Positions 1 to 20,915 of a stretch of DNA of 20,915 bases are shown piece by piece; position 1 is the first letter of the stretch; each line of letters starts with the position of its first letter. This stretch comes from Parvularia atlantis. Lineage: Eukaryota; Opisthokonta; Rotosphaerida. The notes beneath the pieces were generated by a model. It saw only the letters and a program-made list of their open reading frames with translations. It did not search any database and was not told the origin of the DNA. Where the stretch lies: NCBI GenBank assembly GCA_943704415.1, contig CALSCO010000325.1:1-20915 (forward strand), in the 5' to 3' direction. The translations under genes were made by a program, and so were the position numbers.

Positions 1-249
1 CCCCCCCGCGCGCTGCCACCGCCACCACCCGCGTCACGTGCGTTGCGCGCCACGACACCGCAGTGCCAACCGTGCCACGCGCACGCCCGCCTGACGCGGC
101 GCGCGGCGCGGTGCGCGTGGCGTGCGCGGCACCGTGGACGTGGCGGCTCGCTGTGGCGTGCGCGGCATGTGGCGATGGCATCTTCCGCACGCAGCGGCCC
201 CCCGTACGCACGCGCAACCCTCCGCTGACACGCGCGTGGCGCACCTCAG
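1..249. other. Upstream edge of the ELAPOR-like gene, unresolved
   Basis: Very GC-rich stretch starting with a run of seven C. A 3' splice site with a good branch motif (CTGACAC then CTCAG) ends at 249, so the region holds the last part of an intron and probably part or all of the first exon(s) with the signal peptide. ATGs at 167 and 175 could start translation: 167 reads through without splicing, and 175 works with an intron at 204-249. Neither gives a convincing signal peptide, so no start is chosen. A CACGTG palindrome lies at 35-40. Confidence 0.4.
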
Positions 250-3200
250 CGACGCGTGCACCGCCGACGACATCGGCCACACGTACCTCCCCTGCGACCA
301 GTCGTCTCAGACGCGCGTCGGCGTCTACTTCTACACGCGGCCGTGCCAGCCGACCGGTGTGGCGCCGCGCCCGGTCCTCTCCTTTCCTCCCCCGCGTGCT
401 CACGCCACGTGCCGCGCGCTCTGCAGACGCCGCGCCGCTGCCGGCGGCCGTCCCCAACCTGCCGTGCAGTGCGTCGGTCAAGTTTGCGGGCGCAGCCACG
501 CCTTGCTCATGGTTGGCGCGCCGCAGACATCCAGTGCGACGCCGGCTCGCGCCTGCCCTTCGGGGCGACCTCCTGTGCCGCCTGCGAGCCCGGCACGTAC
601 AGCATCGGCGGCGCAGACCTGTACACGAGCTGGGACACGTGCGTGGCGCGCGCCGTGTTTGGCGTACCCGCCGGACGCGGCGCCTGACCTGCGCCGATCA
701 GTATGCCGCTGCCGTTCCGCACCGACTGCACCGGCACCAACTGCGACGGTCTGTCCCGGGGCGCACAACCGCGCTGCACGCCCACCTCCTGACCCGATCG
801 TGCGCCCGCATAGTGTGGTACCCGAACGGCACCTACGTCGCCACGGCCAACGTGACCGGCTTCCACAACGTCGACGCGCGCCTTTATCTCGTGGCGCAGT
901 TTGTGCGCAACTCGGGCAACTACATCCAGTTTGCCTTCCGCGTCGACGCCGAGAACTGCGGCTCGTCGCTGTCGTGCGATGGGTGCGCCGCGCGCCTGTG
1001 CCCGCGCGGCCCTCCGCTTACCGACGCCGCCCGCAGCCTGCGCTTCTACATCGGCAATGTGCTTGTCATGCCGCTCGTCTCGACCTCGCTCACGTGGCAG
1101 ACCGTGCGCTTCAACGTCTCGGCCGGCACGCACGAGTTCCGCTGGACATACCACAAGGACTACAGCATCTCGTTCGGCGAAGACCGCGCGGCGATCCAGT
1201 CGATCGAGCTGTTTGGCACCAAGACCTTCACGGAGGAGTGCGCCAAGTGCCCGCCGGGCACGTTCAGCCAGGGCCAGGGCAACTCGGCGTGCAAGGAGTG
1301 CGTGCTGCCGCTTGGCTGCTTTGACTGGGCGTCTGTGCGGGGCCGCTGACGCTGCACCGGCGCGGCAGGTGCGACTACAATAAGATCACGAGCGACAGTG
1401 GCATGAGCACGTGCACGCCGTGCGGCGCGAACGAGTACGCCTTCACCGACAGCTCCAAGTGCACGCCGCTGCCGGCCTGCACCGCGCGCGACTACTTTGT
1501 GCGCAACAAGCCGTGCCAGGCCAACGGCAAGTTCGACCAGGAGGCCGTGGTCAAGGACATCGTGCCGGGCGTGATCAAGGCGTGCGACCCGTCCAACCCG
1601 GCCTCGGTCGCGCCGCCGGCGGTGCAGACGCAGCTGCCGTGCACGTGCGACAAGGGCCTTGTGCTCCAGAACGGCGTGTGCCGCACCTGCCCGGCGGGCC
1701 AGGCCTCGTACGGCGGCACGTGCAACACGTGCCCCGCGGGCTCGGCCGCGCCCAACATGATCGAGGTAACCGACTGGTGCGTGCACTCCGCCCGCCGCGA
1801 GCACTGGCCTTGTGGAGCTGACGGGGCGGCGGCACGCAGGTCCTCGCTCCCGCCCATCTTCAAGACGACGTGCCTGGGCGACTGCGACCCCGGGGGCTGG
1901 CTCCCGCGCGGCTCGGCGATCCACACGGGCTACAACTTCCGGCAGTCGATGGACTCGTACCTCAACACGGTCCAGACGTTTGCCAACGATCAGGGCACAA
2001 TCAACTTCAACCTGGCCATGGCCGTCTCGGGCTCGTACTGGTACCGGCGCGACGTCTTCCTGCAGTTTGTCGTCTCGAACCAGACCGACGGCCAGCTCAT
2101 CTCGGCCACGCTGCGCCCGAGCTACTCGGCCGGCACGCTCGTCGTCAGCAATGCCACGTTCTCGATCACCAATGCGGGCACGTACAACATCACCTGGCGC
2201 TTCCACGTGGGCGACGGCGGCGGCTTTGACCGCAACACCTACGCCGAACTCACGGCCGTGCGCTTCACGGGCATCGCCGACGGCGGCGCGTACCGCTGCC
2301 AGCCGTGCCCGCCGGGCTTTGGCACGAGCGTGCCGGGCGCGGTCAACTGCGACGAGTGCAAGCCGGGCACGTACAGCGCCGCCTCGGGCGACGTCTGCAA
2401 GCCCGTGCCCGACGGCTACTTTACCAGCACGTACCGCGCGACCTCGTACGTCGCGTGTGGCCCGGGCACGACGTCCAACGCCAACCGCACCGACTGCGAG
2501 ACCGACTGCACCCTCGCCGCCCATGGCGTGCAGCTGCACCCGAACCATAACCCCCAGCTCAAGTACGACCTCAGCCCGCTCAGCAACCCGGAGCGCATGT
2601 ACTTTGCCGGCGTCGACTCGTCCTACAACAGCTACTTCCTCAACATGTGCTACCGCGGCGTGTCCAACGTGACCTGCTTCACCGACGACGGCACCCCCGT
2701 GCCCTCATTCGCGTGCCAGACGGTCAAGGGTGCGCTTCCGATGCCCGCGCGCGGCATGCACCCGTCCGCTCACATGCACGCGCGCGCGCGCCGCCGCAGG
2801 ATGGGGCTACTCGGTTGACCTCGGCAGCATTATCGGCTTCACGGCGCTGCAGCCGATGTCCGACGCGCACAAGGGTGCGCTGCGCGCCCGTGACAGCACG
2901 TGTGTGCCTGGTCTGACGATGTGCCGGCCCGCGACAGGCCTCATCGTCACCTTTGGCAACGGCACACCCGGTTGCGGAGCCACCTACGGCACGGCGCAGC
3001 CCCGCCGCACCAACATGACAATGATCTGCGACCTCCAAGCTGGCGTCGGCACGCCCACGGGCAAGTACAACGCGACGGTGGAGTACCCGGCGCGGAGCTG
3101 CGTCTACAACTTTGTCTGGCGCACCAAGTACGCCTGCCCCGTCTGCAACGACGCCGACTTTGAGTTCGACGCCGAGCCGTGCATCAACGGGTACAAGGCG

Positions 3201-4003
3201 TTCACGTACCGCAAGCTGTACGACTGCTACGGCGAGCCGAAGCCGGACAAGGTCCCCGCGCCGCAGCGGTGCTACCTGTGCCCGCGCGACGCGCGCAACA
3301 CGACGTGCAGCGGCCGGGGCTCGTGTGATGAGACCTCGGGCCTGTGCAACTGCCAGTCAGTCTGGACAGGCCCGGCGTGCAACGAGTGCAACACGGGCTA
3401 CTTTGGTCAGAACTGCCAGAACGGTGCGCGCGCTCGCCGCGTGTGCGTACGCGATGATCGGCTCATGCACGCGCGCCGCCTGCGCGCAGCCTGCCCCGGC
3501 GGCGCGCGCAACCCGTGCAGCGCGCACGGCCAATGCGACGCCGGCGTGACGGGCACGGGCGTGTGCGCGTGCAGCACGGGCTGGACGGGCGCGGCGTGCA
3601 ACGTGTGCGCGGCCGGCTTTGACGGACCCAACTGCGAGCGTGCGTGGGCGTGCGACGCACGCACGGAGAGGTGGGCTGACCGGGTGCGCCGCCAGCGCTG
3701 CCCGCCGCGATCACCGACGTGCTGCCGGGCTGGGCCATCCTGCTCATCATCGTGGCCGTGATCGGCTTGGTCGTCGCGGCCGTGCTCCTGTACCGCGCGA
3801 AGAAGGCGGTGCGTGTCTCGCCGCGCGGCACGTGGCACAAGGGCGCTCACGCGCGACGCCAGGCCGAGTACAAGTACTCGCGGCTGCTGTCGAGCCAGCC
3901 GATCGAGCTGGGCGACGATGACGCCCCCGGCACGCCGGGCGACAACCTCGGCGGCCTGCCCAACGACGAGGAGCGCGAGCGGGCGGAGAACGAGCGGGTG
4001 TGA
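250..4003 (+). CDS. ELAPOR1: ELAPOR (KIAA1324/EIG121)-like type I membrane protein with two EGF-like modules; 5' end not resolved
   Basis: Exons: 250-356, 427-468, 527-638, 702-748, 814-982, 1037-1330, 1369-1776, 1840-2729, 2800-2874, 2938-3423, 3490-3639, 3696-3808, 3863-4003, giving 1010 residues plus stop. The spliced protein follows animal ELAPOR1/2 end to end. It has the N-terminal CTADDIGHTYLPCD block, repeated GCC2/GCC3 cysteine motifs (CPPGTFS, CKPGTYS, CGPGTTSN), the WSSLPPIF turn, ACTARDYF, and a C-terminal MRH-like region with CVYNFVW and YACPVCNDADF. A single membrane helix follows at about 3718-3795, then a basic stop-transfer and the conserved cytosolic EYKYSRL motif. Known family role: an endolysosomal/Golgi transmembrane protein linked to autophagy, vesicle traffic and granule maturation. 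Unlike animal ELAPOR, two EGF-like modules (about 3270-3640) sit between the MRH-like part and the helix. Several introns are multiples of three without stops; their removal is supported by alignment to family spacing. It converges on UGDH with 236 bp between stops. The signal peptide was not located. Confidence 0.86.
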
Positions 4004-4239: not shown

Positions 4240-6228
4240 CTACTGGTGCTGAGGCTTGCCGATCGCGTGCACCTTGAAGCCGATCTTGCGCAGCTGCGTC
4301 GCATCGAGCATGAGGCGGCCGTCGAAGATGAACGCGGGCTTGTTCATCGAGTCAAACACGGCCTGTGGGGCGCGCAGGCGTCAGCACGGCGGCGGGTCAG
4401 CGATGTGCACGCGCGCGTGCCTGGTAGTCGAGCGTCTTGAACTCGTCCCACTCGGTGCACACGACGATCGCGTCGGCGCCCTTGACGGCCTCGAGCGCGC
4501 TCGGCATGACGTGCAGGCACTTGGGCACTGCGAGGGGTGTGAGCGTGAGCGTGCCAGGCCGCGCGTGTGCAACACGCAGCGACGCACCGCGCTCCTGCAT
4601 CAGCGCGTTGGGCGCGCCCTCGTACTCGCCCGTGATGTCCGAGACCATCTGCTCGCGCGAGACCTGCGGGTCGTACACGGCGACGATGGCGCTCTCCTCG
4701 AGCAGGTAGCTGTTGCGGCGCGTGAGGGGCACGGCAACGCCACGCGCGCGACATGCCGCACCGCGCGACGTAGATCGACGCCGACTCGCGCGTGTCGCCC
4801 GTGTCCTTCTTGAACGCGAAGCCGAGGAGCGCGATGCGCTTGCCCGAGATCGTGTTGAACAGGCTCTTGATGATGTTGCCCACGAAGCGCTTCTTCTGGT
4901 AGTCGTTCATGACGATGACCTGCGCGGCGCAAGCGTGAGGCGCGGTGGACGGGCGCGCGCGCGCGCACACACACACCTGTCGCCAGTAGTCGGCCACCTC
5001 AATCAGGTTGAGCGACTCGCACAGGTAGACCAGGTTGAGGATATCCTTTTGGAAGCAGCTGCCGCCGAAGCCTGGGCCGCGCGCGCAGTAAGCACAGCGC
5101 AGCCGCGGCGCACAGACGGCCAGCACACGCGCACGCACCGACCGAGGCCTTGAGGAACTTGGGGCCGATGCGGCTGTCGGTGCCGACGGCGTAGGCGACC
5201 TCGTCCACGTCGGCGCCGGTGGCCTCGCAGAGGGCACTGAGCGCGTTGATGGACGAGATGCGCTGGGCGAGCATGGCGTTGGCGGCCTGCGCGGCGGGTG
5301 AGCGACACAAAGGACAGCGCGGGCGGCCGAGTGCGCACCAGCTTGGACAGCTCGGACGACCACAGGTTCATGGTAATGATGCGCTCGCGCGGGACCCAGC
5401 GCGCGTAGACGTCGACGAGGGCGGCCTGCGCCTGGAGGCCTGCGGCGGTCTGGAGCGAGCCGATGAGGACGCGGTCGGGCTTCTCGAGGTCGCGGATGGC
5501 CGTGCCCTCGGCGAGGAACTCGGGGTTGGAGAGGATCTGGAACGAGAGGCCGGGCTTGGCGTTGGACTCGAGGATGACGCGCATGCTTTCGGCTGTTGTG
5601 CGCGCGTGCAGATTGATGAGTGAGGACAGCACAAGCACGGGGAGGAGGAGGACGCACCGGTCTTGCACGGCACGGTCGACTTCTCGACGACAATCTTGTT
5701 GCTCGTGGCGACCTCGGCGATGCGGCGCGTCGCGCGCTCAACGAAGCGCAGGTCGGCGGCGCTGCCCTTGCCGATGCCCTGCGTCTTGGTCGGCGTGTTG
5801 ACCGAGACGAAGATGATGTCGGCGCGGCGGATCGCGTCGTCCACGTCGGTGCTGAAGAACAGGTTGCGCCCGCGGCACGCTGTCGATGCGCCCGCCAGTG
5901 GTCGCTGCCGTGAGCCTATGCGCACGTGACGCGAGGGGGCGCACCCTTGACGATCTCGTCCAGGCCGGGCTCGTAGATCGGCAGCGTGTCCGAGTTCCAC
6001 GCGGCCACGCGCGCGGTCGAGATGTCGACGACCTCGACGCGCACGTCGGGCGCCTTGTACGCGATCATCGCGCACGTGGGGCCGCCGACATACCCTGGCC
6101 CCCGCGGCGCGCGTGCGGCGTGAGCGGGATGCGCCCGTGCGGGCTGCGCGACAGGCCGCTGACGCACCGGCGCCGATGCAGCACACGTGCACCTTGAACG
6201 CGGTCGTTCCCTGACCCATGTCGGCCAT
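4240..6228 (-). CDS. UGDH: UDP-glucose 6-dehydrogenase
   Basis: Exons on the minus strand: 6228-6168, 6094-5945, 5879-5658, 5592-5339, 5286-5139, 5071-4977, 4919-4762, 4709-4588, 4527-4421, 4362-4240; 479 aa, the usual length. It oxidises UDP-glucose to UDP-glucuronate with two NAD+, supplying glycan and cell-wall precursors in the cytosol. Visible: the Rossmann motif [13 protein letters not shown] (assembled across intron 1), [43 protein letters not shown], the catalytic-cysteine motif [10 protein letters not shown] (Cys284, human Cys276 plus the 8-residue longer N-terminus), [14 protein letters not shown] and KPAFIFDGR. The start at 6228 is the first ATG after an in-frame upstream stretch with no similarity; a second ATG lies three codons later. 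The last intron (4363-4420) has a GC donor, required by both frame and family spacing. It is divergent from WDR26 and shares a 136 bp CCAAT-containing gap. Confidence 0.97.
4363..4420 (-). other. GC-AG intron in UGDH (donor CAG|GCACGC)
   Basis: Phase-0 intron. With the GC donor the protein reads [15 protein letters not shown], the same length as the human family block between LDY and KPAF. The nearest GT downstream puts the next exon out of frame. Ends CACAG. Confidence 0.9.
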
Positions 6229-6364
6229 GTCGCGCGGCGTGGTGGGCGGCACGGGATCTGCGGCGCGTGCGGCGCGCCCGCGTGAGGCACGGCGCGTGCG
6301 GCCAGGGGGCCACGTGCGAGTTAAGTGTGGCCAACACGAGGCGTCAGCCAATCAGCGCCCAACA
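6229..6364. promoter_or_regulatory. Divergent UGDH / WDR26 promoter gap
   Basis: The 136 bp between the UGDH start and the proposed WDR26 start hold a textbook NF-Y site (CAGCCAATCAG, CCAAT core 6348-6352) and a CACGTG E-box-like palindrome at 6311-6316. The CCAAT core is about 120 bp upstream of the UGDH ATG but only 12 bp before the proposed WDR26 ATG. If NF-Y serves WDR26 as well, its transcript may start downstream of 6365. Inference from sequence only. Confidence 0.5.
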
Positions 6365-6766
6365 ATGGCCGCGCTTTGGCAGCCACACTGGGTGTGCTCG
6401 CACTGCGTTTTGCGTTCGCGCTGTTGACCTTGCTCGTCCTCATTCGCGCCTTGTGCTGCGCTCTGCTGGCGCTTGCCGTGCCGCCCGTCGTACTCGCCCT
6501 GCTCGTTGCTGTCGTTCTGCTCGCGGTCACAGCGCGGCCGCAGAAGAAGCGCCGTCGGACGCGCGGCGGATGGACTGATGACGTCGTGCGTGCGACAGGC
6601 GACAGCCGCGCTCGCGCGAACCCCCGCGCAGCAACAACGCCGCCGCCGCCGCCGCCCGCCGCACCAGCACCCGCCGCGGCCGCGCACCCCCGCGACGAGG
6701 ACGGCGCGGACGACGACGACGACGCCAACGCCGCCGAGGCCTGGGAGCAGCAGCAGCAGCAGCAGC

Positions 6767-6849
<83 letters not shown>

Positions 6850-9331
6850 CAGCTGCTGCAGCAGAGGCGGCGCAAGCGGCAGCGCACGATGGTGACGAGC
6901 AGCGGCAACGGCAGCTGCAACGGCAGCAGCAACGGCAGCAGCAGTGGCGGCAGCAGCGCAGGCGGCGGCAGCGCCGAGGGCCCTGCCAGCAACGGCGCCG
7001 ACCACGCCATGGCCGTAAGCAACGGGGCCGGCGCCGGCGGCGACAGCTGGGCCATGTTTGAGCGCGAGGAGGTCGTGCGGCTGCTGATCCAGGCCATAAA
7101 CGAGCTCGGCTACGCGTGCGCTGCCCAGCGCGATGCGCGATCACCACCACTCGCGCGCTGATGGCGTCACGCAGGCACGCCGCTCGCGCGCTTGAGAGCG
7201 AGTCGGGCTACGTGCTCGAGGACCCCGCCGTCGCCGCGTTCCGCCAGAGCATCCTCGGCGGCCAGTGGGCGCTGGTGCGTCAACACCTCGCTGACCGACA
7301 AGCACGGCATCTGACGTTCGTGCGCGCCAGGTCGAGGAGCTCCTGCCGAAGCTCAGCTTCAAGTCACCCGAGCGGCTGCAGCGCGCCATGTTCAGCGTGC
7401 GCCAGCAAAAGTTCCTCGAGCTGCTTGAGCGTCACGACGCGCACGGGGCGCTGCTCGTCCTGCGTAACGAGCTCTCGGGCCTGAACATGGACGCCAAGCG
7501 CCTGCACAAGCTGTCGAGGTTCGTGCGCACACGGCCGTTTGCGGCGCTGACACAGCGTGCAAGCTTCATGATGTGCGCGAGCGCCGAGGACCTGCGCGCG
7601 CGCGCAAACTGGGATGGCGCGGCGGGGCTATCGCGCTCGCAGGTGCTCGCGGAAGTGCAGCGTACGTCGCATGTGCTCCGCATGTTTGGTGTGCAGCGCC
7701 TCACACGTGCCCGCGTGCACCAGAGCACCTCTCGGCCTCGTCGATGATGCTCGACGGGCGCCTGCAGAAGCTCCTGCAGCAGGCGATGCAACACCAGGTG
7801 CGCCGCCTCGAGTTTGTCGCGACCGCTGACGCGTGTGCACGGCCGCAGGTCGCGCAGTGCTCCTACCACAACGTGCGCGAGACGCCGCGGACGCTGTACG
7901 AGGACCACCACTGCGACGAGTGCGTGCGCGGGCGCGTGCGTGAGTGGCCGCGCTGTGCTCGAACGGCGCGCACGACGCAGGACCGTTGTGCCGCAGCGCA
8001 CGCTGTTCACGCTGCAGGGACACACGGACGAGGTGTGGTTCGTGGCCTACTCGCACGACGGGCGCTTCCTGGCGTCGGCGTCCAAGGACACAACGGTGAT
8101 TATCTGGAGCGTGGAGGTGCGCGCGCGCACGTCGGTGTGAGCTGTCGCGGTGCCCCCCCCTGAACCGCGTGCACGCAGCTGCGACGGCGCGTGCACACGC
8201 TCTCGCAGCACCAGAAGCCAATCTCATATGTCGCGTGGAGCCCGGACGACTCGCTGCTGCTCTCGTGCGGCAACGACACGCTGATCAAGCTGTGGACGAC
8301 GTCGGTGCGTGGACGCATCTGCGCTGCGGACGCGCGGCTGAGCGGCGGGCGCAGAGCGGGCGCTACGTGCGCGAGTTTGGGCGGCACACGGAGGCGGTGA
8401 CGGCCGTGGCGTGGCTGCCGGGCAACCGGTACTTTGTCTCTGCGGGGCTCGACAAGAAGATCTTCATGTGGGTGCGTGCGCTGCCCGTGCTGCCTGCGGC
8501 CGCCGGACCGTACTGATGCGTGCGCGGCAGGACCTCGACGGCAACGTGCTGCAGGCGTGGAACGGCGCGCGGATAACAGACATGACGATGAACATCGAGG
8601 GCACCAAGTTTGTGGCGATCTGCCAGGACAAGCGCGTGCTCGTGTACCGCATGGGGCGGCCGTCGGAGGAATTGTGCGTCGCGTGTTCTGCGGGCTCTGT
8701 GCGCGGTGCGACTGACGTGACGGCGCGCGCATGCAGCCACATCCAGGAGGCCGAGACGGTGACGTGCGTGTCGCTGTCGAGGGACGGGCGCTATGCGCTG
8801 GTCAACGTGGCGTCCAAGGTGCGCATTGATGATCGCAGCTGCTCGGTGGCTGAGTGAGGCACGGCATCGGCGTGCGCAGGAGATCCACCTGTGGGACCTC
8901 GAGACGCGCCGGCTCGTGACCAAGTACATCGGGCAGCAGCAGCACCGGTTCATCATCCGCTCTTGCTTTGGCGGGCTGAACGAGGCCTTTGTGCTGAGCG
9001 GGAGCGAGGGTGCGTCACGGCGCGACAAGTGCGCGGGCGCGCCTGACTTGCGGCACGGGCGCAGACTCGCAGGTGTACCTGTGGCATCGCCACACGCAGC
9101 AGCTGCTGCAGGTGCTGCCGGGGCACGCCAACGTGGTCAACAGCGTTGCCTGGTCGACCGTGGACCTTGCGCAGTTTGCGTCGGCGAGGTGTGCGCTGGG
9201 CCGCACGCAATCGCGCCACCGTCTGATGCGCCGCCCCCAGCGACGACGGCACCGTGCGCGTGTGGGGCCCCGCGGCGGCGGTCGCCGCCCCGGCCGCCGC
9301 GGACGGCGACGACGCGTCGGCGATGCAGTGA
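6365..9331 (+). CDS. WDR26: WDR26/Gid7-like subunit of the CTLH/GID E3 ubiquitin ligase
   Basis: Exons: 6365-6391 (tentative), 6544-7115, 7175-7274, 7331-7518, 7564-7661, 7724-7797, 7849-7935, 7997-8116, 8179-8304, 8355-8471, 8531-8673, 8737-8818, 8880-9009, 9065-9188, 9241-9331; about 692 aa. Order: a low-complexity N-terminus with basic clusters (KKRRR, RRRKRQR), an acidic run, Q7 and a His-Glu repeat; a LisH helix (REEVVRLLIQAINELGY); CTLH (FRQSILGGQWAL, QQKFLELLE, MCASAEDLRARANWDG); then WD40 blades including EVWFVAYSHDG, SKDTTVIIW, AWSPDD, LWDLETRRLV, FIIRSCFGG and ASASDDGTVRVWGP. All match human WDR26 in order. Known role: scaffold or substrate-recruiting subunit of the CTLH ligase (yeast Gid7). 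The start is uncertain: the long second exon has no in-frame ATG before 6889, so either the 27-nt first exon is real or translation begins at 6889, leaving the repeats untranslated. The donor of intron 7 may be 7924 rather than 7936. The 7519-7563 intron ends AAG. Confidence 0.93.
6748..6849 (+). repeat. CAG tract followed by 13 copies of CACGAG
   Basis: Seven CAG codons (6748-6768) run straight into 13 perfect CACGAG hexamers (6769-6846) and one more CAC. In the WDR26 frame this encodes Q7 and then an uninterrupted alternating His-Glu tract. The perfection of the array suggests recent slippage. Confidence 0.97.
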
Positions 9332-9382
9332 AAGCCATTGTGACGCTGTAGGCCTACGTGGTACTTTTGCACTTCTGCACGA

Positions 9383-9945
9383 ATGTCGAGCGGCGAGAAG
9401 GCTGACAGCTTTGACGGGGCGGCTGCGCTCGTTCTGCCGGAGCGGCCCGCGCGCGTCGAGCCGTGGGAGGACGTGGGCGCGTGGCTGTGGCAGACACCGT
9501 GCGTGTCGTCCAGCCTGGCGTACTCGTGCTTCTCGAGCGTCGCCTTTACCCTCTCGGCGGCCTTTGTGACGCGTGCGTGCGCCTGCCGTTCGAGCTGTGC
9601 ACTGAGCGCGCCGTCGCAGGGCGGCCCTTCTCCGCGGCCCTGTACGGGCTGGGCGCGTTCACCGTGACGGGGCCGCTGACGTGGTGCGTGGCGTGTGCGC
9701 GGGTTGGCGGGTGCATGAACGACTGAGGCACGCGTGCGTGCACGAGAAGGCAGCTGTGCAAGTATCGCCGCCGCAAAAAGAAGGAGGCGATCTTCGAGAT
9801 GATGACGAAGCAGTCCGTGCCCGTCGACCCCGTGACGCTCAAGCCGCTCGCGCCGTCCCAGCCGCAGACGAAGATCGACTCGCCTGCCGAGGACGCCAAG
9901 CCCGCCGACGCACCGCCGGCAGCGCCCGCAGCCCGCGGCAAGTGA
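9383..9945 (+). CDS. COX20: COX20-like cytochrome c oxidase assembly protein
   Basis: Exons 9383-9572, 9620-9683, 9750-9945; 149 aa (human COX20 118). Family role: an inner-mitochondrial-membrane chaperone that stabilises newly made Cox2 during complex IV assembly. Visible: an N-terminal soluble part, then the family signature TPC directly before helix 1 (SSSLAYSCFSSVAFTLSAAF), a short charged loop (VTRRP), helix 2 (SAALYGLGAFTVTGPLTW), and the trailing motif W-x-x-C-K-Y-R with a basic run, matching human WFHCRYNYAKQR in spacing. The C-terminus is Pro/Ala-rich and unconserved. The second intron is best read as GTGCGT...AAG (9684-9749), which keeps human spacing; GTGGCG...CAG at 9687-9753 is an in-frame alternative changing one residue. 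The ATG at 9383 lies only 51 bp after the WDR26 stop on the same strand. The stop is 63 bp from the convergent gene's stop. Confidence 0.8.
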
Positions 9946-10863: not shown

Positions 10864-13800
10864 ATGGCCGCCGAGGCGTCGTCGTCGTCGGCCGTCGCGC
10901 CCGAGCCCGCGACCTTCACCAAGCCCAGCGAGGCAGATCTCGCGGCCGTGACGGCGGGGCAGGAGCTGCTCAAGGTGGCGCGACTGGGCGCCGGACTCTT
11001 CCCGCGAACGACGCGCGCGCGCTGACGAAGGGGATCTCCGCGCAGTTCTGCAAGCGCGCGTCGCCCCACTCGCGCACGTTCAAGGTTGACGTGCTGAGCG
11101 GGCAGATCGTCTGGGCCTCGCCGTCAAAGTCCTCGTCCAAGACCGTCGTCAACCTCGACAGCGTGCGCGAGATCCGCGAGGGCCAGACGACCAAGATGTG
11201 CGTGGCGGGCCGCGCGCCCCGCGCGATCCCCCGCACACGCTCGCTGCGCTCTCCTCGTTGCTGACGTCGCGCCGTCCGCCCTTCGCCGAACGACCTGCGG
11301 GGATCCCTCTTCACGAACCACCCGCCACCGCAATAACGATAAACAACAGCTTCAAGGCGCGCCCCAACGAGCACAAGCCCGAGCTGTCGTTCTCGGTCGT
11401 CTACGGCAGCACCTACACCACGCTCGACCTCGTCGCGCCCACGGCCGAGCAGGCCAAGCTGTGGATCAACACGCTGCGCTACCTCGTGGCCGAGGCGCCC
11501 AAGGCCGACCGCATCATCACGTGGCTGCGCCAGGCCTGGCGCAAGGCCGACCGCAACGGCGACAACCAGCTCAGCCTGGACGAGATCATGCGCCTGCTGG
11601 GCCAGATCAACGTCCACCTCCCGCGCAACGCCGTCAAGAAGACGTTTGAGATGTTCAGCAACGGCACCAAGTTCCTCGACTTTGACGGCTTCTCCAAGTT
11701 CTACAAGCAGCTCAAGTACCGCCGCGACGTCGAGGAGTTGTTCAAGGACCACGCCAAGACCTACAAGGGCGTCTCGCTCACCGCGGGCGAGTTTGGCGGC
11801 TTCCTCAGCGCCGAGCAGGGCCTCAAGCTCTCCAACGACGAGGTGCGCGTGCGCGCTGCCCCGTGCGCGCCGTGCTCACCGACTGCGCGCTGCCCCGTGC
11901 GCGCCGTGTTCACCAACTGCGCGCTGCCCCAATCAGGTCGTCAACCTCATCAAGAAGTACAGCAAGGACAGCTTCGCGGCCGTGCCCGGCACGCTCTCAC
12001 TCGACGGCTTCTCACGCTACCTGGCCGAGGAGGACTCGGAGGCGATGAACCAGGCACACCTCACGACGGTGTATCAGGTGCGGCTCACACGCACGCACAT
12101 GCACTCTCGCTCAAGCCGCTCCTGCACCCGCGCGCAGAACATGGACCTGCCGCTCAACTACTACTTCATCAACTCGTCGCACAACACGTACCTAATGAAG
12201 GACCAGCTGCGCGGCCCGTCGTCGGTCGAGGCCTACATCAAGGCGCTGACCAAGGGCTGCCGCTGCGTCGAGCTCGACTGCTGGTGCAGCGCGCGCCCGG
12301 CCCGCTCGTGTTCGCTCACAACCGCCTCGCTGCCAGGGACGGTCCGGACGGCGACCCGATCATCTTCCACGGCCACACGCTCACGAGCAAGATCAAGTTC
12401 CGCGACGCGATCAAGGCCATCAACGACTACGCCTTCAAGGCGTCGCCGTACCCGGTCATCCTTTCGCTCGAGGTGCACTGCCACCTGGAGCAACAGGGCA
12501 AGATGGCCAAGATCATGCGCGACATCTTCGGCAGCAAGGTGCTGCGCCCCCCGGCCACGGCGCAGAGTGCCGCGCGCGCTCACACTGCCCGCTGTGCGCC
12601 ACCAGCTGTACGACGTCCCGATCACGTCCGTGACCGAGCGCCTGCCCACGCCCAACGAGCTCAAGAACAAGATCCTCGTCAAGGGCAAGGGTGCGCGCCC
12701 TCGTGACCGCCACTTGCACGCGGTCGCGCTCACGTTCACGCCGCGCCGCGCGCAGCGCTGCCGCCCCAGGTGCCCAAGCCTGAGGAGTACGAGTCGGACG
12801 ACGACTCGGACGAGGACGAGGACGAAGACGAGGAGGCCAAGAACGACCCGAAGCTGGCCGAGGCCAAGAAGATCAAGGAGGAGCAGGCACGCGCGACACC
12901 ACATCTTGCAACTCCACGCGCTCACATAACGCGCGCACGCAGGGCAAGAAGAAGGGCGCCAAGGTCAAGGTGCACAAGGACCTGTCGGACCTGGTCAACT
13001 GCTTCAAGTCGGCGCACTTCAAGAGCTTCGAGGAATCGCGCAAGAAGGGCCGACCAAACGAGATCTCGTCGTTCGTCGAAGGCAAGTCGATCAAGTTTGC
13101 GACCAAGAACTCGGAGGAGTACAGTGCGTCCTCGGCGCGGGCGCCCGGCTTGCGACGGCGACCTCACGTCCCCGCGCAGTCGAGTTCAACTCGATCTCGA
13201 TGACGCGCACGTACCCCGCCGGCGGCCGCATCGACTCGTCCAACTACGACCCGCAGCCGCACTGGAACCACGGCTGCCAGGTCGTCGCGCTCAACTACCA
13301 GGCACGGCGACGCGCCGCCCTCGTGTCGTGCGCGCACACTGCCCGCTGACGCGCCGCCCGCAGACGTACGACCGTCCGCTTCAGCTCAACCTCGGCAAGT
13401 TCGCGGACAACAAGAACGCGGGTTACCTGGTCAAGCCGCCGGCGTGCATGAAGTACGACCCCAAGATCTACCAGCAGGAGCCGCTCAAGCCGCTCAAGCT
13501 CACAATCCGCGTCATCTCGGCGGCGCAGCTGCCCAAGCCCGCGCGCCAGACCAAGGGCGAGGTCATCGACCCCTACATCGGTGCGGCCGCGGCGCCTGTG
13601 CTCGCGCGCGCGAGACACAGTGGCTCACGCCGCTGGCGGGCGCAGCGGTCGAAGTCAGCGGCGTGAAGCAGGACAGCGCGCAGCATCGGACGAAGCAGTG
13701 CGTTGTGGCGCACGCGTGCACGCGCTCGTGCTCACACGTGCACAACAGCGTCGACGACAACGGCTTCAACCCCGAGTACAACGAGACGTTCACCTTCAAC

Positions 13801-14052
13801 GTGAGTGTGCCCGAGCTGGCGCTCGTGCGGTTCACAGTGATGGACATGGACGTGGGCGGCGGCGGTGCGTCGCCGCGAGCAGGCGGCCGTGCAACCTGCG
13901 CCTGACGGGGCTCCCACGCAGACGACTTCATCGCCACGCGCACAATCCCCCTGCCCTCGCTCCTGCCGGGCTACCGGCACGTCAACCTGTTTGACTACCA
14001 GCACCGCGAGATCAACCTCGCGGCGGTGAACGTCCACATCAAGATCGAGTGA
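10864..14052 (+). CDS. PLCD: Phosphoinositide-specific phospholipase C, delta type
   Basis: Exons: 10864-10974, 11046-11197, 11350-11842, 11937-12077, 12138-12283, 12337-12538, 12606-12690, 12756-12886, 12943-13123, 13180-13301, 13364-13580, 13646-13697, 13749-13864, 13922-14052; 759 aa (rat PLC-delta1 756). It cleaves PIP2 to IP3 and diacylglycerol in a Ca2+-dependent way. Order: PH domain ([18 protein letters not shown] to [14 protein letters not shown]); EF-hands, the first canonical ([12 protein letters not shown]); X domain with His314 and Asn315 (SSHNTYL), Glu344/Asp346 (ELDCW), His359 ([12 protein letters not shown]) and Glu393 (ILSLEVHC), each exactly three positions beyond its rat equivalent; an acidic X-Y linker; Y domain ([41 protein letters not shown]); C2 domain ([36 protein letters not shown]). 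All catalytic and Ca2+ ligands are present, so it should be active. Two introns use GC donors, one has a GTGGCG donor, and one carries a tandem duplication. Confidence 0.97.
11850..11930 (+). repeat. 34-bp tandem duplication inside a PLC intron
   Basis: Units at 11850-11883 and 11884-11917 differ at two positions; a 13-bp third partial copy follows at 11918-11930. The host intron (11843-11936) is 94 nt; removing one unit would leave 60 nt, the local norm. Confidence 0.95.
12887..12942 (+). other. GC-AG intron in PLC X-Y linker (donor CAG|GCACGC)
   Basis: Phase-0 intron between KIKEEQ and [10 protein letters not shown]. The length is not a multiple of three, so it must be removed to keep the Y domain in frame, and no GT lies at a workable donor position. 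Ends CACGCAG. Confidence 0.88.
13302..13363 (+). other. GC-AG intron in PLC Y domain (donor CAG|GCACGG)
   Basis: Joining CAG to ACG gives [16 protein letters not shown], the same length as the rat/human block from ALNFQT to GRF. A GT donor 24 nt downstream would insert eight residues absent from the family. Confidence 0.85.
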
Positions 14053-14265: not shown

Positions 14266-14962
14266 TCAGATGACGAAGAACGAGCCCACCACCGCCAGAC
14301 GCCCGCCCACGAAGCGCTTGCCCGCGTCCGGCGCGCCCACGCCGCACTCGGTCACGCGGTTGCAGCCCCAGATGTACACGCGCCGCAGCTGCACCAGCTT
14401 CTCGCGGAACACGTTCATCAGGTCGTCTGCGCGCCAGGTGAGCGGCAGCGCACGAGCGGCGGCTGCGCGCACCGTCCACGTCGCGGATCCACGACACGTC
14501 AAGCGTCTCGAGCGCGGTGCACGTCTCGGCCACACGCTCGAGCGCCTGGCGGCTGACGTTGCGCAGCGCGTTTAGCATGAGACGCGTCAGCTTAGGCGCG
14601 GCTGGCGACGCCGCGAGCATCTCGACGCCGTCGCTCGTGACGCGCGTGCGCGTGAGGTCGAGCACGCCGAGCTCCGAGCACAGCTGCGCGCAGGGTCAGT
14701 CACGAGCGGCTTCACACCGCGCCCGCCACGCACGCGGAGCACGTGGCTGAGCGCGTAGTCGTCAAACGCCGTCGCCGACACGTCGAGCTTGGTCAGCGCC
14801 GCGCCGATGAGCCCGCGGTCGAGCCGCGCAAAGACCACGGTCGCGTGCAGGTCGTCGCTCTCGGCCAAGGCTTTCATCTTGCCCAGGCGCGCCTGGCGCT
14901 GCCGCTCGAGTCGCTGCGCGCGCGGGCCGTCGTCCTCGCCCGTGCGGCCGCCCATTGCGTCC

Positions 14963-14998
<36 letters not shown>

Positions 14999-17958
14999 AG
15001 CTTGTTGCGCTGCGTCGTCGCGCCGCGGCCCTGCAGCGAGGCCACCGGCAGCGTGTGCGCCTCCTCGGCCGCGCGGCCGGAGAGCGCGTGCCGCAGACGC
15101 ATCGCGTCGCGCAGGTTGAGCTTGCGCAGGCCCGCACCGATCGCCTGCAGCAGCGGGAACACGCCCTCGTCGGTGATCTGCCGCCACCGCGCGCGCGCTT
15201 GCGTCAGTCTCGTAAGCGGCGCAAGACATGCCGCACCGCACCTGCACGCACGCACGCAGCGACAGCACGTCCAGCCGCTCCATCACGCGCAGCTGCCGCA
15301 GCGCCTCGTCGTCGACGTTGGAGCACATCTCCAGCTTGAGCTTCTCGAGCGTCGCGGCGCAGCGCGCGACGAGGGCGCGCACGGCACCGAGGCCGATGCG
15401 CGCCGAGTTGGCCACGCAGAAGCGCTGCGCGCCGGGCGTCAGCACTACGCAGCGGGCGCGCTGTCTCGCGCGCGCCGCACCCGCAGCGGCAGGCGCAGAT
15501 TGCTGATGACGAGCGCGCATGCGTGGTCGCTCACGAGGAATGCGCCGTCGAGCGTCAGATCCGAGAGCAGTGGCGCAGCGTCCGGGATCTGCAGGAAGAC
15601 GTCGTCGTCCAGCCGGCCGCAGCCCTTGAGCGTGAGCGTCGAGAGAGCGCCAAGGTGCGGCAGCATCGACACAAAGCCCTGGCGGTCGAGCTCTGCACGA
15701 AAGGTCAGCGCCAAGAACGATTGCCCGCATGCAGCCGGAACGCACTGGCGCAGTCGTACAGCCGCAGCGACTCGGCGCGCGCGTCCAGGAACAGCTTGAC
15801 GGTGCTATTGGTGAGGCGGCGCACGTGGCACACAAGCTGACAGATGCGGTCGCGCGCGCGCTCGTCCAGGTCGCCGAACGACTCGACCTCGTCAATGTTG
15901 TCGCACACGTAGCGCATGCAGATCTCCTGCAGCGGCAGCACGCGGCCATGCAGCTCGTTCAGGATCGAGCCCTCCGAGCCTTTGGTGCGGCGCTGGCGCG
16001 ACGATGGCGAGACGGTCGTCGCCGCGGGGCTCCCGCGCCGCGTCTCGTTGTCCTTTTTGGCGCAGTTGGCGCAGCGCAGGACGCCATCGGGCAGCCGCGT
16101 GTCGCACTGCGCCGATGGTCAGCCACAGCGACAGGGCGTGCGATCGACAGGCGGCACGTGCCTGGCCGCAGAAGGCGACACGGCGGCGCACCATGCGAAA
16201 ACCCGCGATCCACCGGTTAGCGTCGTCTGCACGTTCGCGCGTGAGCGGCGCGATCGCGCGCACGGGCACTGGCGAGGCACACCGCCCTCGCCGTCGTCCG
16301 AGCTGGACGAGTCGGCGCCGCGCTTGCGGCCCTTGCCCTTGTCCTTCCCCTTGTCCTTGTCCTTGCTCTTGCTCTTGCTCTTGCCGTCGGCCTTGCCGGC
16401 ACCCTTGCTCTTGCTCTCGGGGCGGCGCGCGGGGTCGTCCAGCACGGGCTCATCAACATACTCGAAGCGCAGGCGCGGGCGGTTGCTGATGCGCGCTCTG
16501 AGTGGGCAGGTGCCTACGCGTGGTGGGGAGGCAGAACGCACGCCTGATGCGACGTTGGACGGTTGTCGACCGTCGGGAAGGCGTACAGGTTGCGGCCGAG
16601 CGTGGCCGGGTCGGTCGTGTCGGCATTGGCGTCGGCGTTGGCGTTCGTGCCACCTGACGCGCCCTCGGTAGCGGGCGTCGCGGTGTCGCCGCGCGTCTCG
16701 GCCGCCAGCCGCTCAAAGTGGCGCTGGCGGATGCGCTGTGCCGAGATGCCCTGCGACCACGCGTGGTCAGAGCGAGCGACGGCTAGCAGTGCCGCACCTT
16801 CTCAGCGAGGAACGACGTGAGCGCGCTCGTCGGGCCGCTGACGCCGTTCGTCCGGCGTCGCGCGGGCTGCGCGGTCGCACGGTCGGGCTCCGCCTCTACC
16901 TCAGCGAGGGCGGCGGGGGCGGGCGTGGCGCGGCGCGACGGCTCAGGCGATGGCAAGCTCAGCGTCGGGAGGCGCGGCGTGCTCACGGAGCTGCTCGACG
17001 CAGCCCTCACGGGCGTGGCGGGCGTGGCCGGGGCGGAGGCCGTACGGCGCGGCTGGGACGGCGTGAGGTGGCGTGTCGAGGGTGCGGGCGTGATTGGCAC
17101 GATGCGGATAGCCGGCGGCAGCTTGAGCGTCGGGTCGAGCGGCACAAGTTCGGCCCCGCGGCGCTGGCGCACGCAGTACGGGCAGACCCAGCTGTCGGCG
17201 ACGTCACGCAGCTGCGCGGGCTGCACGAGCAGGCACGCCGCGTGGAAGACGCGCGAGCAGCCGGTGCAGGGGAAGCGCGTGGGCGTGCGGCGCTGGCAAA
17301 CCCAGCACTCGCTCTCGTCGGCGTCCTCGCTGGCCGGCATGGTGTTGCGGGCCGGCGTGGGCGACCGTGCCGCGGCGGCGATCGGGCTCGTGCCGGCGCG
17401 CCACACGCGCTTCTTCTTGGCGGGCGAGGGCGACGACGCGGCCGAGGCCGGGAGCGATCCGCCGCGTGGGCGCGCAGGGCTATCCTTGAAGTCGTCGTCG
17501 TCGTCGTCGCTGTCGCCAGGATCAGCGCCCTCGTCCGTAGCCGGGCGCTTGCGCGGCTTGCGCGAGGGCATGGCGTCGCGCTTGCGGCTCGCGTTGCTGC
17601 CGCTGCTGCTCGGCGTGTGCGGCGTGTGCGGCGGGTTTGGCGCGGGCTCGCCGTCCTCCGCCACCTCGGCGGCGCGCACGGGGATCGCGACGACGGCGAC
17701 GGTGGCGGTCGCATCGGCTTCGCTCTCGCAGTACCTGCGCCGCGCCGTCGTCGTCCCGATCAGCGCCGCCACGTGTGGGCGCAGAGACGGCGCATCCATC
17801 ACGCACGGGCACAGCCAGCGCGCCATCGCCTCGACGGCCTTGCGGCGCAGCCCGAGGCACGCGGCGTGGAACGCGCGCGGGCATCCGTCACAGCACAGCA
17901 GCGAGCCGCCGCGCTCGCACAGCGCGCACGCGTCGTCGTGCGCGTCCTCGCTCGCCAT
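14266..17958 (-). CDS. RAD7: PHD-PHD-Rad7 fusion: Rad7 repair protein with two N-terminal PHD fingers
   Basis: Exons: 17958-17807, 17734-16798, 16750-16542, 16485-16283, 16226-16162, 16106-15746, 15692-15481, 15424-15242, 15177-14734, 14683-14473, 14426-14266; 1045 aa (yeast Rad7 565). PHD1: Cys11, 14, 23, 26, His31, Cys34, 50, 53, completed only when intron 17735-17806 is removed (WLCPYC). PHD2: Cys194, 197, 207, 210, His215, Cys218, 235, 238. A Pro/Ser-rich linker follows, then the Rad7 N-terminal motif GPTSALTSFLAEK joined by splicing to GISAQRIRQRHFERLAAE (yeast GPNSALTQFLREEGISAENI). Next come a Lys-rich stretch, a CxxC-x10-CxxC zinc motif (520-537), the Rad7 core (LPLQEICMRYV, STVKLFLDARAESLRLYDC) and leucine-rich repeats to the C-terminus (ALETLDVSWIRDVD). 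Known role: partner of Rad16 in global-genome excision repair and in a cullin ligase. The start is the first ATG; no in-frame ATG lies between PHD2 and the Rad7 motif. The acceptor at 16485 could instead be 16497. Confidence 0.92.
14965..14997 (-). repeat. GTC triplet run encoding eleven aspartates in the Rad7 repeat region
   Basis: Eleven GTC triplets on the plus strand read as an Asp11 tract inside a charged insert that splits the Rad7 leucine-rich repeats. Confidence 0.95.
16107..16161 (-). other. GC-AG intron in RAD7 (donor CAG|GCACGT)
   Basis: Removal joins FCGQ to CDTRLPDGVLRCANC and so creates a complete CxxC...CxxC zinc motif. Branch-like CTGACC and acceptor GGCGCAG are present. The 55-nt length is not a multiple of three, so it must be spliced. 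Confidence 0.88.
16330..16386 (-). repeat. Imperfect hexamer repeat encoding Lys-Ser/Lys-Asp/Lys-Gly dipeptides
   Basis: Variants of CTTGTC and CTCTTG in tandem encode a long alternating KS/KD/KG tract in the Rad7 part, upstream of its zinc motif. Likely a flexible basic, DNA- or nucleus-targeting segment. Confidence 0.8.
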
Positions 17959-18017
17959 CGGTCCGCCGGTGGCGCGACCAATTAAGCAGAGTGACGATCG
18001 CGGTGGCGCCACTTGTG
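17959..18017. promoter_or_regulatory. 59-bp bidirectional RAD7 / RAD16 promoter
   Basis: The start codons of the PHD-Rad7 gene (minus) and RAD16 (plus) are 59 bp apart. The gap holds CCAATTAAG (CCAAT 17978-17982), 19 bp from the RAD7 ATG and 35 bp from the RAD16 ATG. Both leaders must be very short or overlap, which suggests joint control of the two partners. Confidence 0.6.
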
Positions 18018-20915
18018 ATGTCGATCGTGGCGGCAGCAGCGCGGCGCATCCGCCGCCGGCTGGCGGCCGACGAGGACGACGACGAGCACGAGAACGGCAT
18101 TGGCGACGAGGGCGCCGATCCGCGCAGCAGCAGCAGCGGGAGCAGCACGCCGAGACGCGGCGCGGCGGCCGAGGCGGCGGCGCGGCTCAAGCGGCTGCGC
18201 GGCGACGCGCACGTGGCGCCACTGGACGACGAGGACGAGGAGGACGATGCAGAGTACGTCGCGGACGGCAACGGCGACGGCGACGGCAACGGCGGTGGCA
18301 GCAGCAGCAGCGACGAGGACGAGGATGCGGCCGTCGCCACTGACAGCAGCAGCGACGAGGACGGCAACCGCGTGGCGATGGACGACGACGACCGCGGCAT
18401 CGCGGGACGCCGGCGCCAGCGCGGGCGGGGCGGGCGGCGACAGCGCGAGCCGCGTGCGCCGCGTCAGGTGCGCCGCCGTCGCTAGGGCCGTGCGCGCGCA
18501 CGATCGCCGCGCTGACCAGTGCCACCAGCCGCGCTCGCGCGTGCCGCCGCACAGGCATCCGGAGCTGCTCACGCTGTGGGAGAACCTGGACAGGACGCAC
18601 CCGCTCGTGCAGGTCGGCGCGCGCGGACGGCGGTACCAGCGCGCGTGCTCACGACATGCGCCGCACAGACGTCGATCGCCCAGCCGCCGCCCACGCTCAA
18701 GATAGAGCTGCTGCCGTTCCAGAAAGAGGGCCTCGCGTGGATGCTCAAGCAGGAGGGCACCAACTTCCGCGTGCGTGCCGTGCCGTGCCGTGCGAGCGCC
18801 CGCACCGGGACGGCTGAACGGGGGGCGCGCACAGGGTGGCATCCTCGCCGACGAGATGGGCATGGGCAAGACGATCCAGATGATCGCCCTCATGCTCAAC
18901 GTGCGCTCCGACACCCTCCCGACGCTCGTCGTCTGCCCGACGGTGCAGCCGCCGCGCTCTGCCTGGGCCGCGGGCGTGCTCACGGCACTGGCCGCGTGCA
19001 GATCGCGCTCGGCCAGTGGAAGGCCGAGATCGAGCGGCACACGACGCCGGGCGCGCTTGACGTGGAGCTGTACTACGGTGCGCGTGCGGAGGGGCCACTC
19101 GACGCGCGCGCTGACGATAGCGGCGTGCGCAAAGGCGCCACGCGCGACCGCGACCCCAAGCGTTTCCAGCGGCCCGTCATCTTCCTCACGACGTACTCGA
19201 CGATTGAGACCGACCACCGCCGGTGCGCCCGAGCCGCTGGCACTCCACGCACGCGCAGGCGTGACGTCCTCGGACGTCGCACGTAGGCAGGAGTACGGCT
19301 TCAAGCGCAACGGCGAGACCGTGCGCGAGAGCAGCCCGCTGTTCCAGGTGACCTTCTTCCGCATCGTGCTCGACGAGGGTGCGTCGCGGCCGTGCTTTTG
19401 CGCGCCGCCCGCTCATCGCGCACGCAGCGCACTCAATCAAGGACCGCTCGTCCAACACGGCGCGCGCCGTGTTCCAGCTGCGGTGCGAGCGCAAGTGGAG
19501 CCTCTCGGGCACACCGCTGCAGAACCGCGTGGGCGAGCTCTACTCGCTCATTCGCTTCCTCCAGGTCCGGCGTGCCTCCTGTGGGTGATGGCACGCTCTT
19601 GTCTGACGTGCGAGCGCGTGTCACGCACAGGTGAGCCCGTTCAGCTACTACTTCTGCACCAAGTGCGAGTGCAAGATGCTCCAGTGGTCGTTCAAGAAGG
19701 ACCACAAGCACTGCGACGAGTGCGGGCACATCTCGCATCAGCACTACTGCTGGTGGAACCGTGAGATCCTCCGCCCAATCCAGAAGTACGGCGCGCTGGG
19801 CGACGGCAAGGACGCGTTCACGAAGCTGGTGCGCTCGGCCGCGGCGCGTCTGGGTAAGGCGCGTGGCTGACTTTGGCGCAGAGCCGCCTCATGCCGCGCA
19901 TCATGCTCCGCCGCACCAAGCTCGAGCGCGCCGAGGATCTGGGCCTGCCGCCGCGCGTAGTATGCTCGGGTCGCGCTGGCTTGAGTGAGCGAGGGGCCGC
20001 GACAGCTGATCGGCGCGCCCGCCCTCGCGCCAGGTCGTTACGCGCCGCGACTACTTCAACGAGGAGGAGGAGGACTTTTACGACGCGTGCGGCGCGCCTG
20101 TGGCACTGCGCGCGGCATGCTGACTTGCTCACTGCTGACCGGGCGCAGGCTCTACTCCGAGTCCAAGACCAAGTTTGTGTCGTACGTGCAGCAGGTGTGC
20201 GGACACACGTTCGCAAGCGCGCCCCGACGGCCCTGATCACCCGTTCGCGCGGCGGTACCACAGGGCACGCTGCTCAACAACTACGCGCACGTCTTCGAGC
20301 TCATCACGCGCATGCGCCAAGCGGCGGACCACCCGTTCCTGATCACGCACCGCATCGCGATCGACGGCGACCGCGTACGCGCCTGCTGGTTGCGGCCGCG
20401 CGCACGCGTTCACGCGCCTCGCAGAACGTCGACGTGTGCGGCATCTGCCAGGAAATCCCGGAGGACCCAATCCGGGCCGGCTGCAAGCACATCTTCTGCC
20501 GCGAGGACATCGCGCGCTACCTCGCGTCGAGCATGCTCGAGGACAGCGTCGAGTGCCCGATCTGTTTCAAGTGCTTGCCCTTTGCTCGCGTGTGCAGCAG
20601 CGAGCGGCTGACGGGCCGGCGCGCGGACGTGGCAGAAAGCTGTCGATCGACCTCAACCAGCCCACGTGGGAGGCCGCCCACAAGACCAAGAAGCGCCAGT
20701 CGATCATCAGCCGCATCGACATCGACCGCTGGCGCAGCAGGTGCGCGTGCGTCGCGCCCGTGCCTCGGCCCCCGCGCCGAACGCAGCGACGCGCAGCACC
20801 AAGATCGAGGCGCTGCTGGAGGAGCTGACGATGCTACGCGAGCAGGGGGACAACATCAAGTCGATCGTGTTTTCTCAATACGTGCGTGTGGCGGCGCTCG
20901 CGTGGCCTGGGGGGG
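18018..20915 (+). CDS. RAD16: Rad16-like SNF2 ATPase with RING domain, truncated at the right edge
   Basis: Exons: 18018-18467, 18529-18612, 18669-18770, 18835-18942, 19002-19077, 19135-19222, 19287-19378, 19428-19564, 19631-19828, 19882-19959, 20034-20086, 20149-20194, 20264-20374, 20425-20570, 20636-20740, 20797-20881; an intron opens at 20882 and the rest is outside. 653 residues are visible. A long acidic/Ser-rich N-terminus (about 150 aa) precedes the SNF2 N-lobe: [28 protein letters not shown] (Lys224), [17 protein letters not shown] (332-335, restored by splicing), [20 protein letters not shown], then the Rad16 Cys-rich insert (FCTKCEC, HCDECGH), [29 protein letters not shown] and [13 protein letters not shown]. 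Next come the RING (546-588), KLSIDLNQP and the start of the C-lobe ([20 protein letters not shown]). Known role: DNA-dependent ATPase and ubiquitin ligase subunit with Rad7 in excision repair of silent DNA. Oddities: intron 19078-19134 ends AAG, and the sixth RING ligand position is Asp. Confidence 0.97.

Follow-up and report, generated by a model that had tools for sequence, protein, structure and literature searches.

Why would an excision-repair protein carry a pair of PHD fingers? The question is raised by a gene of Parvularia atlantis in which two PHD fingers are followed by Rad7, located in a window of 20,915 nucleotides (the whole stretch of DNA that was analysed). Rad7 works with Rad16 as the complex for global-genome excision repair, a pathway that serves untranscribed nucleosomal DNA. 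To our knowledge, none of the Rad7 proteins described so far has a PHD finger. The locus is best explained as a RAD7 orthologue with an N-terminal PHD pair, and a role in repair is predicted for its product.

The gene was independently rebuilt on the minus strand, from 17958 to 14266. The initial annotation had described an ATG-started model of 11 exons that stay in phase, and the same 11 in-phase exons were obtained. The length differs: the coding sequence of 3150 nt has 1049 codons, where a product of 1045 residues had been given. The features of the gene are as follows.

17807-17958, minus strand: exon 1, which opens with the start codon and encodes the greater part of PHD1 (closest solved chains CHD4, NSD2, AIRE and BHC80)
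16798-17734, minus strand: exon 2, end of PHD1, a linker, PHD2, a Pro/Ser/Thr-rich linker and the Rad7 motif GPTSALTSFLAEK
17161-17340, minus strand: PHD finger 2 with its lead-in, residues 183-242 (PF00628, 1.1e-06, 29.0 bits), a duplicate of PHD1
16542-16750, minus strand: exon 3, where the N-terminal Rad7 motif continues with its second half, GISAQRIRQRH
16283-16497, minus strand: exon 4, Lys/Asp-rich linker
16162-16226, minus strand: exon 5, first Cys pair (FCGQC), which spans a GC-AG intron; weak zinc ribbon match
15746-16106, minus strand: exon 6, second Cys pair, BC (Elongin C) box PLQEICMRYV and beginning of the repeats
15481-15692, minus strand: exon 7, leucine-rich repeats
15242-15424, minus strand: exon 8, leucine-rich repeats
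14734-15177, minus strand: exon 9, leucine-rich repeats interrupted by an acidic insertion (D11)
14473-14683, minus strand: exon 10, leucine-rich repeats
14266-14426, minus strand: exon 11 and stop codon, Rad7 match

The genome is intron-rich with a GC content of about 70%, and the RAD7 locus reaches 75%. Nine introns of RAD7 are of the GT-AG type and are 44-72 nt long. Intron 5 (16107-16161, minus strand), which lies between the two Cys pairs, is best read as GC-AG with FCGQ joined to CDTRL; the alternative is a GT-AG intron of 79 nt that gives ten residues fewer. Either form leaves the PHD-Rad7 fusion unaffected. A branch-point-like sequence, CTNA[CT], is found close to the acceptor in most of the 24 introns modelled for RAD7 and RAD16, and CTGAC is its most frequent form. 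Intron 1 is backed by homology, since its removal converts WLCPC to the canonical WLCPYC of PHD1. This intron (17735-17806, minus strand, 72 nt) is also in frame and stop-free. If it were retained, the last zinc knuckle of PHD1 would change from CPYC to CPC, which could serve as a splice switch of the finger.

Is the second half of the product really Rad7? Its parts follow the order N-terminal motif, four-cysteine knuckle, BC box and leucine-rich repeats. Among solved structures, the best relative is yeast RAD7 (PDB 5zb2, E=4.7e-21, 78 bits), with 22% identity over residues 574-1023, and the runner-up is FBXL2 (5.4e-12), a generic leucine-rich-repeat match. The Rad7 core and repeats named in the initial annotation are therefore borne out by this match, and the core aligns with yeast Rad7 at 29 SD above shuffles; the yeast core sequence used agrees letter for letter with residues 5-405 of the PDB chain. 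The N-terminal motif that had been reported, SALTxFLxExGISAxxI, is present at about residues 347-372. The stretch GPTSALTSFLAEKGISAQRI scores 22 SD above shuffles against residues 1-60 of yeast Rad7, an N-terminus that is absent from the PDB. The claim of a zinc motif holds in part: a four-cysteine knuckle that weakly resembles a zinc ribbon is present, but the model of the Rhp7-type treble-clef zinc finger, PF23550, gave no match at E<=10. Budding-yeast Rad7 presumably lacks this finger as well, and for that reason PF23550 was not treated as Rad7-defining. Inside the leucine-rich repeats, exon 9 (14734-15177, minus strand) has 11 consecutive Asp and some 90 additional residues.

Compared with S. 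cerevisiae Rad7 (5zb2), the N-terminal motif, BC box and leucine-rich repeats occur in identical order, and a Rad16 partner exists in both organisms. The yeast protein, however, has 565 residues and no PHD finger, while here about 340 residues, including both fingers, lie upstream of the motif. The BC box PLQEICMRYV, located ahead of the repeats, aligns with yeast SLQSLCITKI at the same position, thus the fusion protein has probably retained the module for an Elongin C-cullin ligase.

The identity of the gene is also supported by its neighbour, RAD16, which the initial annotation left unmentioned.

18018-20881, plus strand: RAD16, encoding an SNF2 ATPase with a Rad16-type zinc insert and a RING; 15 exons read, 3' end past the window
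17959-18017, no strand assigned: interval of 59 bp between the RAD7 and RAD16 start codons, with a CCAAT; presumed shared bidirectional promoter

Pfam models for SNF2 (1.9e-54) and RING match the product. Its zinc insert lies between the helicase motifs and is missing from the aligned Rad5. The product is 51% identical to yeast Rad16 over 278 aligned columns, zinc insert included, versus 26% to Rad5 over a shorter stretch. With no more than 59 bp between their start codons, RAD7 and RAD16 are most likely expressed from a shared bidirectional promoter. The divergent RAD16 gives independent support for the Rad7 identity and indicates that the PHD-coding ATG is the natural 5' end of RAD7. The partner is present in S. 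cerevisiae too, but the back-to-back arrangement seen here is a difference.

The two PHD fingers are complete, as had been claimed. Both carry the C4HC3 zinc ligands, and a Pfam scan found PF00628 twice (6.9e-11), above the curated cut-off; PHD2 by itself, at residues 189-240, scores 29.0 bits, where the cut-off is 24. The fingers are an internal duplication with a common lead-in, ASEDA (18 SD; DNA identity of 73% over 49 nt). The linker that follows PHD1 in exon 2 holds basic clusters of the KKKRVW type. PHD1 shares the C4HC3 frame and the GGxLxCCDGCPRAFH core with AIRE PHD1, BHC80/PHF21A and the CHD4 fingers, as well as the aspartates for contact with H3K4me0 and H3R2. Unlike those fingers, the pair described here sits in a repair protein, and its second member is without the contact residues.

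Can these fingers read histone H3? AIRE D297 and BHC80 D489, two residues before the first Cys, contact unmethylated K4, and PHD fingers that read H3K4me3 have a key Trp instead (PMC3214078). PHD1 has Asp9 two residues before the first Cys, Asp24 after the third Cys, and Ala29 at the Trp position of methyl-lysine readers; the counterpart of AIRE Asn295 is His. In PHD2 the zinc ligands are kept, both H3-contact aspartates are replaced (Ser and Thr), and there is no Trp. The combination of an acidic residue two before Cys1, an Asp after Cys3 and no cage Trp is thus found in PHD1 and not in PHD2, so only PHD1 fits an H3K4me0 reader. The suggestion that the fingers read H3 tails is accordingly narrowed: it is plausible for PHD1 and does not extend to PHD2. 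PHD1 alone appears equipped to read H3, namely H3 with unmethylated K4, and its binding to unmodified H3 is reasonably likely, as judged from a few residues. PHD2 probably serves as a structural module or as one for targets other than histones; its AlphaFold model, made from a single sequence, has a pLDDT of 56, too low to be of use.

It is from budding yeast that the placement of Rad7-Rad16 on untranscribed chromatin is understood, and there Abf1 is responsible. Abf1 is part of the yeast Rad7-Rad16 complex and marks where the complex sits (PMC10498010, PMC5052058). The complex occupies Abf1 sites until UV exposure and then spreads, with Gcn5 and H3 acetylation (PMC5052058, PMC10498010). A different arrangement may exist here. 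The fused RAD7 would be expressed from the short interval common to RAD16, and through its BC box Rad7 would assemble with Elongin C and a cullin into an E3 ligase. PHD1 would bind the N-terminal end of H3 if its lysine 4 carries no methyl group, and this contact could tether Rad7-Rad16 to untranscribed nucleosomal DNA without a sequence-specific anchor like Abf1. Nucleosomes without H3K4 methylation would represent untranscribed DNA, to which the PHD reader would direct the complex in place of the Abf1 anchor. A RAD7 orthologue with a PHD pair and H3K4me0 anchoring of Rad7-Rad16 is the best explanation overall and is favoured with some confidence. That H3 binding by PHD1 steers repair is, taken by itself, slightly short of an even chance. 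More tentatively, the global-genome repair complex of this lineage may have an H3K4me0 reader built in, with the lack of H3K4 methylation marking where Rad7-Rad16 patrols; the arrangement could even be ancestral, in which case it would have been lost later and yeast would depend on Abf1 instead.

The fusion may also be real without the fingers placing repair via H3. They could instead serve protein contacts, nuclear retention or the choice of ubiquitin-ligase substrates, or be largely neutral. The replacement of both H3-contact aspartates in PHD2 is in keeping with such roles, and some PHD fingers are reported to have atypical targets (PMC10124903). However, PHD1 has kept the residues of the H3K4me0 type, and fingers shown to read H3 are among its closest solved relatives; a role apart from H3 is the less likely reading.

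Two genes on the same strand, a PHD gene and a RAD7 with a missed start, or two transcripts from one locus, would agree with the lack of PHD fingers in the Rad7 proteins known to us. They would also agree with the Pro/Ser/Thr-rich linker having the weakest coding signal, with a codon-usage score of -0.18 against 0.3-0.9 bits per codon in other parts. The arrangement of exon 2 argues against this. PHD2 and the Rad7 motif had been placed in one uninterrupted 937-nt exon with no in-frame ATG between them, and exon 2 has exactly this length and a single frame throughout. In-frame Met codons occur at 1, 45, 106, 183 and next at 516, and from 17340 to 16626 ATG is absent from every frame. A separate RAD7 would therefore have to start at a codon other than AUG or begin in an upstream exon that is spliced into the linker. 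A splice acceptor in the linker is itself unlikely, because only one branch-point sequence of the CTNAC type, CTCAC at 17067, lies there upstream of the motif. A start codon or polyadenylation site between PHD2 and the motif, named at the outset as what would split the locus, was looked for; besides the missing ATG, no AATAAA-like hexamer occurs on the minus strand within the RAD7 gene, linker included. The GC fraction stays at 0.66-0.80 through the PHD2-Rad7 region with no gene-edge dip, and it falls to 0.53 just past the stop codon.

An open frame is not in itself proof of a fusion and was rejected as such. Open frames are cheap at 75% GC, and the antisense strand has open frames of 437 and 518 codons over the PHD2-Rad7 region, so the case has to rest on evidence other than openness. 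In the linker between PHD2 and the motif, GC3 exceeds GC1+2 (p=0.003), the synonymous codon preference in the fusion frame exceeds 2000/2000 shuffles, and the fusion frame contains no stops versus 4 and 3 in the other two sense frames. We infer from these features that the PHD and Rad7 parts are on a single transcript. The PHD-PHD-Rad7 fusion gene is very probably real, and division into two genes or transcripts is improbable.

Could the protein belong elsewhere? KDM2A/B and FBXL19 combine a PHD finger, an F-box and leucine-rich repeats, use F-box/Skp1 and carry CXXC, with JmjC in KDM2. A chromatin protein of this kind would account for the joint presence of PHD fingers and repeats, and weak KDM2B matches (E about 0.1) were obtained. 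The RAD7 match, however, scores 78 bits versus about 14, the Rad7 N-terminal motif and the RAD16 neighbour are present, and a Pfam scan of the fusion protein matched no JmjC, CXXC or F-box model. A KDM2/FBXL19 identity was rejected on these grounds and is very improbable. These proteins are not relatives of Rad7, but they offer a functional parallel, since there too a PHD finger precedes the repeats of a cullin-ligase receptor.

A misassembly, with a PHD gene wrongly joined to RAD7, is barely credible: the fusion is known from a single contig, but the join would have had to keep the frame within exon 2, where GC is uniformly high, and PHD1 and PHD2 are duplicates of one another, which is common within a single gene.

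No description of a PHD-Rad7 fusion was found in the open literature on Rad7 with PHD. Viral contigs scanned with Rad16 and Rad7 gave no relatives, and prokaryote contigs scanned with Rad16 gave only generic bacterial and archaeal SNF2 helicases with 22-28% identity. The PHD-Rad7 architecture may be a new variant, the parallel of a PHD finger before the repeats of a cullin-ligase receptor being known from KDM2/FBXL19. A gene fusion is evolutionary evidence that both functions belong together, and the fusion seen here, back to back with RAD16, points to a repair complex that could locate silent chromatin unaided. An H3 reader within Rad7 would, if true, tie histone state to the start of excision repair in a direct and testable manner.

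Rfam and tRNA scans of the window were empty. Four other genes were read in it. An ELAPOR/EIG121-like membrane protein with EGF-like repeats is located at 1-4000 on the plus strand (PF23091 weak, PF23106), and a UDP-glucose dehydrogenase with several exons at 4344-6351 on the minus strand. A phosphoinositide-specific phospholipase C with a C2 domain (11090-14050, plus strand) is convergent to RAD7. The gene at 6325-9500 on the plus strand encodes a WD40/CTLH protein like WDR26/Gid7 (PF21889 weak), which has a long stretch of repeated His-Glu dipeptides close to the N-terminus.
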